64,000 nucleotides of DNA from Novosphingobium sp. FSW06-99 (GTDB lineage Bacteria; Pseudomonadota; Alphaproteobacteria; Sphingomonadales; Sphingomonadaceae), in NCBI RefSeq assembly GCF_001519065.1, contig NZ_KQ954251.1:248001-312000 (forward strand), read 5' to 3'. Below, in pieces: positions 3,946 to 5,533 of this stretch. The translations under genes and the position numbers were made by a program. The first letter of the stretch is position 1. Each line of letters starts with the position of its first letter. The notes under the pieces are model-generated. The model saw only the letters and a program-made list of their open reading frames with translations. It was not told where the DNA came from and searched no databases.

Positions 3946-5084
3946 CGCCGCAGGTGGCGCAATCGGTCGCGATCGCCGTCCTGCGTGAGCGGGCGGCGGG
4001 GGAAACGCGCGTCGCGGCAACGCCGGAAACGGTGAAAAAGCTGACTGCGCTGGGCGCCACGGTCACGGTCGAGGCAGAGGCAGGCTTGGCCGCGTCGATT
4101 GCCGATGCCGACTATGCCGCTGCCGGGGCACGCATTGCCGAAAGCGCGGCGGCGCAGGGCGCCGATATCGTGTTCGGCGTGCAGGGGCCGGAGATCGACG
4201 TGCTGGCCGGGGCCAATCCCGGCGCATGGGTGGTGGCCGGGCTCGATCCGTTCGGGCGACGCGACCGGGTGGAGGGCTATGCCGCCGCCGGACTGGAAGC
4301 GCTGGCGATGGAATTCATGCCACGCATCACCCGCGCGCAATCGATGGATATCCTGTCGAGCCAGGCCAATCTGTCAGGGTACAAGGCGGTGCTGATCGCC
4401 GCCAATCTCTATGGCCGGGCCTTTCCGATGATGATGACGGCGGCCGGCACGGTCAGCGCGGCCAAGGCGTTTGTGATGGGTGTGGGCGTCGCCGGGTTGC
4501 AGGCGATTGCCACCGCGCGGCGGCTTGGCGCGCAAGTGTCGGCCACCGACGTGCGATCCGCCACCAGGGAACAGATCCAGTCGCTGGGCGCCAAGCCAAT
4601 CTTCGTTGAAAACGTCGCGGGGATCGAGGGCGAGGGCGCGGGCGGCTATGCGACCGAAATGAGCCCCGAATACCAGAAGGCGCAGGCCGAGCTGGTGTCC
4701 AGCCATATCGCCAAGCAGGATATCGTGATCACCACCGCGCTGATCCCCGGGCGCGCCGCGCCGCGCCTGATCAGCGACGCGCAGATCGCCACGATGAAGC
4801 CCGGCAGCGTGATCTATGACCTGGCCGTGGCACAAGGCGGCAATGTCGAAGGATCGGTGCCCGATCAGGTGGTTGAACGCCACGGGGTGAAAATCGTGGG
4901 CTTTAGCAACACCCCCGCGCAATTGCCCGCCGACGCCTCGGCGCTCTATTCTCGCAACTTGTTCAACTTCCTCAACGCCTTCTGGGACAAGGACGCAGGC
5001 CGCCCGGTCCTCGACGAGGAAATCGGCAACGCCATCCGCCTGACCCAGGGCGGCAAGATTGTCCACGAAAGGCTCCACCCTTGA
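3942..5084 (+). CDS. pntAA: NAD(P) transhydrogenase subunit alpha, part 1
   Basis: PntAA carries the NAD(H)-binding domain I of the proton-pumping transhydrogenase, which uses the proton gradient to reduce NADP+ with NADH. The N-terminus has the alanine dehydrogenase/PntA pattern ([17 protein letters not shown]), and a Rossmann region follows ([21 protein letters not shown]). The 380-residue length fits the split-alpha form found in alphaproteobacteria, where alpha is made as PntAA plus PntAB. The start is uncertain: TTG at 3942 overlaps the preceding stop as TTGA, and a GTG at 3954 is also in frame. A DUF559 element now separates it from pntAB. Confidence 0.92.
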
Positions 5085-5533
5085 ATCCTCCCCGTCCCGG
5101 GGAGGGGGACCACGCGAAGCGTGGTGGAGGGGCCTCGCCCCACACGATACGCCCGGCGGTAAAGCACGCCCGAGAATTGCGCAGGGCGATGAGTTTGCCC
5201 GAAGTGCTATTGTGGCAACAGTTGAGACTGCGCCCAAACGGCCTGAAATTCCGCCGCCAGCACCCGATCGGGCCTTATGTGGTGGACTTCTGCTGCCTGA
5301 CGTCAAAACCGGCCGTCGAAATCGACGGCTTCGCGCACGACACCGCGGAACGGGCCGCGCGAGACACGATCAGAACACGGTTTTTGCAAGACAACGGGTA
5401 CAGGGTGATCCGGCTTCCTGCGGTGCAGGTTATGGCGGATGCGGTTGGTGCGGCTGGGGCGATCGTGGGGTGTGGGGCCTGGCCCCTCCACCACCCTGCG
5501 GGCGGTCCCCCTCCCCGTGCCGGGGAGGATTGA
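5081..5533 (+). CDS. DUF559 domain protein (Vsr-like endonuclease fold)
   Basis: The 150-residue frame holds a DUF559 core: [15 protein letters not shown] (residues 31-45), [14 protein letters not shown] (58-70), AVEIDG (78-83) and a C-terminal RVIRLPA. DUF559 belongs to the restriction-endonuclease-like/very-short-patch-repair fold; Asp69, Glu80 and Asp82 are plausible metal or catalytic residues by analogy. The first 20 or so and last 20 residues are encoded by the element's terminal repeats and look like low-complexity read-through. The longest frame starts at TTG 5081, overlapping the pntAA stop as TTGA; an ATG at 5189 would remove conserved residues, and a TTG near 5177 is another option. 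The function is unknown. Confidence 0.75.
5084..5145 (+). repeat. Left terminal inverted repeat of the DUF559 element
   Basis: It folds into three successive hairpins: CCTCCCCG/CGGGGAGG with loop TCC, CCACGC/GCGTGG with loop GAA, and GGGGC/GCCCC with loop CTC. It begins at the A of the pntAA stop codon and encodes roughly residues 2-21 of the DUF559 reading frame. Confidence 0.85.
5470..5531 (-). repeat. Right terminal inverted repeat of the DUF559 element
   Basis: Read on the minus strand this is an 87 percent copy of 5084-5145. The same three hairpins form. Differences fall in loops, as one compensated G-C to C-G swap, or as an A-T to G-T change. On the plus strand its last bases include GGGGAGG, placed 7 bases before the pntAB ATG, so the repeat end doubles as the pntAB ribosome binding site. 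Confidence 0.85.

Follow-up and report, generated by a model that had tools for sequence, protein, structure and literature searches.

In Novosphingobium sp. FSW06-99, a DUF559 gene and a pair of inverted repeats lie between the transhydrogenase genes pntAA and pntAB, in the 64,000-nt stretch of DNA analyzed here (hereafter, the window). What kind of element is this unit, and is the gene tied to the repeats by more than proximity?

The unit between pntAA and pntAB

The unit spans 448 bp and consists of two 62-nt inverted arms, 87% complementary and 324 nt apart, which enclose a frame identified by Pfam profile search as DUF559 (PF04480, E 9.5e-27; Table 1). This agrees with the original prediction, made from the DNA letters, of a DUF559 gene framed by 62-bp inverted repeats at this position. 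The neighboring genes were recognized by Pfam as PntAA (PF05222, PF01262), PntAB (PF12769), and PntB (PF02233), and the DUF559 product (the window protein) gave an additional weak match to PF18741. The expected lack of a transposase was likewise borne out: Pfam detected no Y1_Tnp domain in the window protein, and the open reading frames and Pfam together revealed no known transposase encoded in the unit, whose sole recognized gene is DUF559.

The predicted picture of repeats as a frame around the gene holds in part. The arms do flank the DUF559 domain, but they also lie within the DUF559 reading frame, which crosses both of them and ends 2 nt before pntAB, such that the arms encode the tails of the protein. 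The TTG at 5081 is the sole start codon upstream of the domain. Ten pnt loci carry repeats of the window's type, termed T1. In all nine that were readable (L051 being unread), an in-frame start overlaps the pntAA stop and the DUF559 stop lies at most 7 nt from the pntAB start; L131 has an additional in-frame start at -40. In these nine loci, the GGAGG of the right arm is located 7–12 nt before the pntAB start and may act as its ribosome-binding site. Differences among the nine DUF559 genes (980, 795, and 1942 at codon positions 1, 2, and 3, respectively) concentrate at third positions, as for a protein under selection.

Table 1 Features of the unit and its neighbors, in window coordinates
Feature	Start	End	Strand	Basis or remark
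pntAA	3942	5084	+	Stop TGA 5082-5084
DUF559 ORF, 150 aa	5081	5533	+	TTG start overlapping the pntAA stop; TGA stop 5531-5533
Left inverted-repeat arm, type T1	5084	5145	+	Inverted-repeat search, DNA fold
Left arm, hairpin 1	5087	5105		
Left arm, hairpin 2	5109	5125		GAA loop 5116-5118
Left arm, small third stem	5129	5141		
DUF559 domain (predicted nuclease)	5162	5464	+	Pfam, alignment of conserved residues
Codon of D69	5285	5287		Invariant or nearly invariant residue
Codon of E80	5318	5320		Invariant or nearly invariant residue
Codon of D82	5324	5326		Invariant or nearly invariant residue
Codon of H86	5336	5338		Invariant or nearly invariant residue
Right inverted-repeat arm, type T1	5470	5531	-	Inverted-repeat search, DNA fold
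Right arm, hairpin 2	5490	5506		GCA loop 5497-5499
Right arm, hairpin 1	5510	5528		
GGAGG in right arm	5524	5528	+	7 nt ahead of the pntAB start
pntAB	5536	5820	+	ORF, Pfam
pntB	5820	7232	+	ORF, Pfam

Folded as DNA, each arm forms two main hairpins plus a third, small stem. The left arm reaches -22.1 kcal/mol (z -3.9), a value equaled by none of 200 shuffles, and the right arm has a z of -2.0, with 7 of 200 shuffles equal or better.

Across alignments of 56 and 54 DUF559 proteins, residues R34, E41, W45, F57, D69, E80, G83, H86, R98, and G106 were kept, and D82 nearly so. A profile search of the PDB retrieved 3hrl (E 4e-34), 3r3p, labeled as a mobile intron protein (E 2e-5), and PvuRts1I (E 0.004). 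The predicted structure has a mean pLDDT of 78, with a core mostly above 90 and low values in the arm-encoded tails. Foldseek ranked 3hrl first, 3r3p (I-Bth0305I) second to third, and 1vsr sixth, the Vsr match being weaker; mitochondrial ribosome proteins of like fold also matched the structure. With its conserved acidic and histidine residues, DUF559 is predicted to be a small Vsr-fold PD-(D/E)XK nuclease. In PMC1189080, YcjD is assigned to the PD-(D/E)XK superfamily and a YcjD profile detects Vsr; the active site of Vsr and I-Bth0305I is treated in PMC11879112.

Dispersed repeats and the pnt junction in relatives

Searching the window's own genome (4.79 Mb) with the 62-bp end returned 66 matches at E<=10, of which 39 had E<=6e-6. 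Paired by hand, these 39 strong matches resolved into 18 head-out inverted pairs, two units whose partner is weaker, and one solo unit. Among the approximately 20 inverted T1 pairs of this genome, the window pair alone encloses DUF559, and gene-less pairs are thus by far the commoner form. Thirteen gene-less elements found by pattern measure 125–179 bp from the first to the last hairpin. In the pair upstream of pgk (L354, upstream of the match at 1501), the second hairpin of the left arm holds an extra GC-rich stretch. Two further DUF559 genes lie in the genome, one between carA and carB and one between sufB and a gene recognized by Pfam as an ABC ATPase, which is sufC by its position; each has inverted repeats of different sequence nearby. 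No target-site duplication was found in the 14 own-genome elements caught by pattern (of about 20 pairs); their longest direct repeat averaged 2.57, compared with 2.32 under shuffled pairing (shuffle maximum 3.07).

RAYT proteins maintain REP repeats, and REP/REPIN repeats are non-autonomous relative to RAYT. The unit is probably a compact mobile element of a comparable kind: DUF559 would be its only gene, the arms its recognition ends, and the gene-less pairs non-autonomous offspring that relate to DUF559 as REP/REPIN relate to RAYT. The original prediction likewise saw in DUF559 a possible mobilizing or repeat-maintaining protein.

How the pnt junction looks in relatives bears directly on such mobility. 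A PntAB match was present in 88 of the 99 genomes of the genus. Of the 70 pnt loci that we read (30 + 40), 66 show both genes and four are without PntAA. Sorted by hand, the 66 junctions comprise 37 empty ones (defined by a spacer of at most 52 nt), 16 with DUF559 (called by tblastn with the window protein), two with repeats only (L057, L059), and 11 with other inserts (L047, L096, L098, L099, L105, L109, L111, L120, L124, L125, and L133). Given these other inserts, the junction may be a general insertion spot. Re-reading of the PntAA ends, which covered most loci and excluded L041, L043, L131, L056, L097, and L110, left the classes unchanged. L048 (52 nt, classed as empty) resembles a deletion scar, and the spacer of L046 measures 472 nt. 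In L127, the PntAA C-terminus apparently continues into a tail that resembles a repeat (..APPPSVAVAIATSPKGGGF), which gives the impression of a host protein lengthened by a repeat arm.

The empty junctions and the copies elsewhere are compatible with the predicted mobility, against which one insert at a single place in all relatives, with no other copies, would have told. The window copy, on the other hand, looks like an old resident of the operon and not a recent arrival there. Two repeat types, T1 (that of the window) and T2, occur at the junction. On a tree of 48 DUF559 proteins, the ten T1 pnt loci, including the window copy, form one clade (support 99/90), with the T2 loci elsewhere in the tree. 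Location changed at least four times on this tree and five times on a larger one, the direction of the moves not being given by the trees. The closest filled and empty alleles are those of G080 (498 nt) vs. G015 (14 nt) and G027 (13 nt), at DNA identities of 96.1 and 95.4%, respectively. Filled and empty alleles differ across the whole spacer, between coding flanks that are 95–98% identical, so that the exact ends of an insertion are unreadable; no clean recent insertion was found among the filled and empty pnt alleles at 95–96% DNA identity.

Such a difference, spanning the whole spacer between near-identical flanks, is also what recombination would leave. It would suit a homing-type spread, in which DUF559 would cut repeat-bearing or empty alleles, double-strand-break repair would copy the gene-bearing element into them, as happens with the Vsr-like nucleases of mobile introns, and the dispersed repeats would represent homing sites and failed copies. 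The location of DUF559 within a repeat pair fits this model, as does its fold, since the homing endonuclease I-Bth0305I is a close structural relative and among the nearest solved homologues. However, homing requires homologous flanks, whereas related DUF559 elements reside at unrelated loci and are accompanied by repeats dispersed over many sites. Moreover, the copies collected within a genome are not near-identical: 149 of 150 within-genome DUF559 gene pairs, drawn from a collection that covers 132 of the 253 genus genes, do not exceed ~61% identity and, judged by this divergence, are not recent copies. Residence in an intron or intein was not found, the unit lying between two intact genes and no Rfam family reaching threshold in L034; Rfam gave no match in six DUF559 loci. 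Overall, we regard homing as an unlikely account of these elements.

DUF559 and its matched hairpin repeats

The statement, in the original prediction, that similar DUF559 genes stand beside such repeats in other Alphaproteobacteria proved sound: the coupling extends across the class and into some other bacteria. DUF559 occurs in 85 of the 99 genus genomes and in 99 of 290 genomes of the class. We compiled 237 loci from the genus, the class (best 30), named genomes (best 80 of 478), and further records that include E. coli; duplicates, partial domains, and short-flanked loci had been removed. A flanking inverted repeat scored above 13.5, the maximum of shuffles (mean 9.6) on an earlier set of 192 loci, in 201 of the 237 and above 20 in 177, compared with 52 and 6, respectively, of 1500 windows drawn at random from these loci. 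In the earlier set, 167 of 192 DUF559 loci passed vs. 6 of 144 neighboring windows. By source, passing loci numbered 115/132 for the own genome and genus, 23/30 for the class, 58/67 for named genomes, and 5/8 for plasmid and E. coli records. By eye, most repeats are built alike, with a CCTCCC..GGGAGG-like hairpin first, next a spacer (often itself a second hairpin), and then GGAGGGG or GGGTGAGGGG. The coupling of this nuclease family with matched hairpin repeats is real and general.

Two variants of the arrangement were also seen. The DUF559 genes at L228, L230, L077, L153, L166, and L316 are flanked by repeats of another type, CCTTCTCCC..GGGAGAAGGAT.., whose second hairpin is long and which ends in GGATGRGG. 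At L152, L159, L164, L169, L173, and L304, two DUF559 frames share one short locus, and one of the two is without its own scoring flanking repeat.

Repeat type follows the DUF559 tree. Using types defined by our own patterns, which place 53 "other" and 36 "none" loci of the 237 outside the test, we counted 18 type changes over 148 loci and 11 types, against a mean of 104 and a minimum of 93 in 500 shuffles; the shuffles ignore relatedness, and the statistic is inflated because many labeled loci are orthologous. Of the 317 element pairs that could be aligned, 292 have homologous flanks; for the other 25, the flanks fetched contain no homologous ORFs. In 24 of the 25 unrelated-locus pairs, homology passes the element ends by at most 30 nt, and in 11 it stops no more than 15 nt from either end of either member (these pairs derive from 27 loci, some of them orthologous, and are not independent). 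For the homologous-flank pairs, homology extends beyond the element in 231 of 292 and ends within 15 nt in 11. One genome, G009, holds two DUF559 copies on different contigs (L313 and L314), which are 85% identical in DNA and share their repeats, with no match outside the repeats. Read from alignment, these patterns support movement of gene and repeats together, as one unit, in the past.

Repeat types that match, homology ending at the arms, and coupling at this frequency would all be unexpected if DUF559 were a bystander, that is, a resident Vsr-like repair nuclease located among extragenic repeats and not acting on them. Such a role has a precedent in Caulobacter: according to PMC12907096, a cytosine-methylase mutant depends on VsrA, a DUF559 protein, for its DNA-damage (SOS) response. 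Still, we consider it improbable here.

Repeat load was also counted per genome. At least one T1 unit occurs in 64 of the 99 genus genomes, and a backwards-pattern control yielded 0. With typing that covers 132 of the 253 genus DUF559 matches, the 22 genomes with a typed T1 DUF559 hold a median of 21 T1 units, none having zero, compared with a median of 1 in the other 77 (p 5e-7), a comparison that is partly circular, as each T1 DUF559 itself brings two units. For T3, the median is 8 units in the 13 genomes with a typed T3 DUF559 and 0 in the other 86 (p 1e-8), the backwards control being the same word and hence uninformative. Presence of any DUF559, type ignored, does not separate the 99 genomes by T1 load; at least five T1 units occur in 37 of 85 genomes with any DUF559 vs. 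3 of 14 without a family match. G045 (completeness 100, 4 contigs) holds 37 T1 units and no convincing DUF559, its best match to the window protein having E 0.15, and is a possible natural knock-out for comparison. G040 has 29 T1 units and no DUF559 above threshold, in a fragmented assembly.

The census also addresses hitchhiking, in which a RAYT or another transposase encoded elsewhere moves the repeats and DUF559 rides along. Y1_Tnp is found in 29 of the 99 genomes, and these carry a somewhat higher T1 load than the others (median 6 vs. 2, p 0.02). Yet in this survey, which covered Y1 and not DDE transposases, 12 of the 22 typed T1-DUF559 genomes have no Y1_Tnp match, including G037, the richest genome of all with 85 T1 units. 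The single Y1_Tnp match of the window's own genome, at C1:1415, is well separated from the listed T1 matches of its contig. Together with the lack of a known transposase in the window unit and of a target duplication, this makes hitchhiking very improbable.

Compensatory changes suggest what form of the repeat is recognized. Among the units listed, the 22 distinct 34-mers of hairpin 2 are 100% paired, with 22 double changes vs. 7.1 in shuffles; each of the four inner pairs changes on both sides in some sequence, the search pattern itself having set the outer three. Complete folding was seen in 33 of 37 distinct T1 inner sequences, compared with a mean of 0.6 and a maximum of 3 under shuffling, and a GNA loop in 29. 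According to PMC4686876, GNA loops with G-C pairs give unusually stable DNA mini-hairpins. Covarying hairpins with GNA loops favor a DNA hairpin as the recognized form. It is hardly credible that the host keeps these hairpins to end transcripts or stabilize mRNA, with DUF559 merely among them: a TGA does lie within ~10 nt of the left end in 9 of 14 own-genome elements (by eye, whether gene stops or not), but GNA triloops suit DNA hairpins, the element also occurs inside operons, and the repeat pair upstream of pgk was present in 0 of the 29 relatives read, about six of which keep, by eye, the same gene before pgk.

Known repeat systems and a proposed mechanism

The REP/REPIN-RAYT systems (REPtrons, TIRtrons) offer the closest comparison. 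In both, short type-matched hairpin repeats lie outside genes, mostly as inverted pairs; a nuclease gene is flanked or enclosed by its own repeats, with cognate palindromic copies dispersed elsewhere in the genome; and the gene is low-copy and diverged while the repeats are multi-copy (T1 up to 85 per genome). The absence of an observed target duplication in the DUF559 elements is a further likeness. They differ in the enzyme, DUF559 being by prediction a PD-(D/E)XK Vsr-fold nuclease and RAYT an HUH tyrosine transposase (Y1_Tnp), in the GTAG head, which is missing from T1 units (by eye, against the published description), and in the DUF559 coding frame, which can include both arms. In a Sinorhizobium locus (L288:2818-3541), DUF559 stands between two full repeat doublets, an arrangement resembling the one described for RAYT genes. 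RIME (Rhizobium intergenic mosaic elements) are rhizobial palindromic repeats, and the Sinorhizobium units beside DUF559 may be RIME-like. No RIME-DUF559 link was seen among the literature matches listed.

REP, TIR, and CGTC palindromic repeats are described in Di Nocera 2013 (PMC3733652), whose authors found no transposase associated with CGTC. The CGTC repeats of Alphaproteobacteria, as presented there, share with the DUF559 units the host class, a palindromic form, and mostly inverted dimers, but have other head and stem sequences, the DUF559 units reading, by eye, CCTCCC..GGGAGG, then either a spacer or a second hairpin, then GGAGGGG or a similar sequence. As in MITEs, gene-less copies share their ends with a gene-bearing element; unlike MITEs and DDE insertion sequences, the DUF559 unit has neither a DDE transposase nor a target duplication, and ends in hairpins rather than plain terminal repeats. 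The DUF559 elements are thus most like REP/RAYT, yet belong neither to RAYT nor to DDE elements nor to intron homing. The original prediction held the mechanism to be undescribed and, consistently, the literature matches listed include no description tying DUF559 to repeats, although subscription journals were largely missing, which makes this weak evidence of absence.

E. coli served as a comparison within one species. Its DUF559 gene, ycjD, lies between sapF and fabI and is present in the laboratory strain MC1061. A repeat of GGGGAGAGGGTTAGGGTGAGGGG type is located downstream of ycjD in two E. coli loci (L289, L294), and by eye the Sinorhizobium unit and the unit adjacent to ycjD are nearly identical in look. 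A 276-base query from the ycjD repeat region matched 5100 of 5426 E. coli genomes, at a median of four places per genome in those with any, and the ycjD query was at least 80% covered in 3362 of the 5426. The sapF-fabI interval was set aside as an empty-site test, as the three ycjD-less strains inspected have efflux genes beside sapF instead; in part of E. coli, according to PMC12817139, ycjD takes the place of the eef operon. A repeat unit at pstB-pstA is polymorphic in E. coli, as a 92-bp segment between AACCGTG repeats that reads equally as a deletion. Extra DNA at zntA-tusA in two E. coli alleles was rejected as a candidate, resembling an E. coli REP sequence by eye. For Azospirillum chromids, a query taken from one strain aligned along 99% or more of its length with seven Azospirillum records, with no empty site among them. 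The window protein had no plasmid match at E 1e-5, and the L031 protein matched 44 plasmid and two phage records; eight loci from the plasmid collection were read.

Under the mobile-element reading, the arms would fold into covarying GNA-loop hairpins wherever the region becomes single-stranded or is extruded as a cruciform. The cognate DUF559 would bind its own hairpin type and then cut, and repair or replication would copy the repeat pair, rarely together with the gene, into exposed spacers beside gene ends. Association, type-matching, and past movement as a unit are supported by the comparisons above; binding, cutting, and copying by DUF559 are the steps that we infer. Against the reading stand the absence of a target duplication in the elements compared and of a clean recent insertion at pnt, the T1 load of G045, the failure of DUF559 presence as such to separate genomes by T1 load, and the slightly higher load where Y1_Tnp is present. 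The recurrence of the enzyme family with matching repeats across many bacteria suggests that the enzyme spreads and maintains them. A broader proposal, for and against which we see the balance as about even, is that DUF559 proteins serve specifically to spread and maintain a proteobacteria-wide class of DNA-hairpin repeats. They would then constitute an independent second REP/RAYT-like system, built on a Vsr fold and not HUH, with E. coli ycjD and its neighboring repeat as a worn member.

The matched types of hairpin and protein make this reading directly testable with swap controls. If true, it would assign a function to a common family that lacks one, link abundant repeats to an enzyme, and add a class of nucleases to those that spread short repeats.
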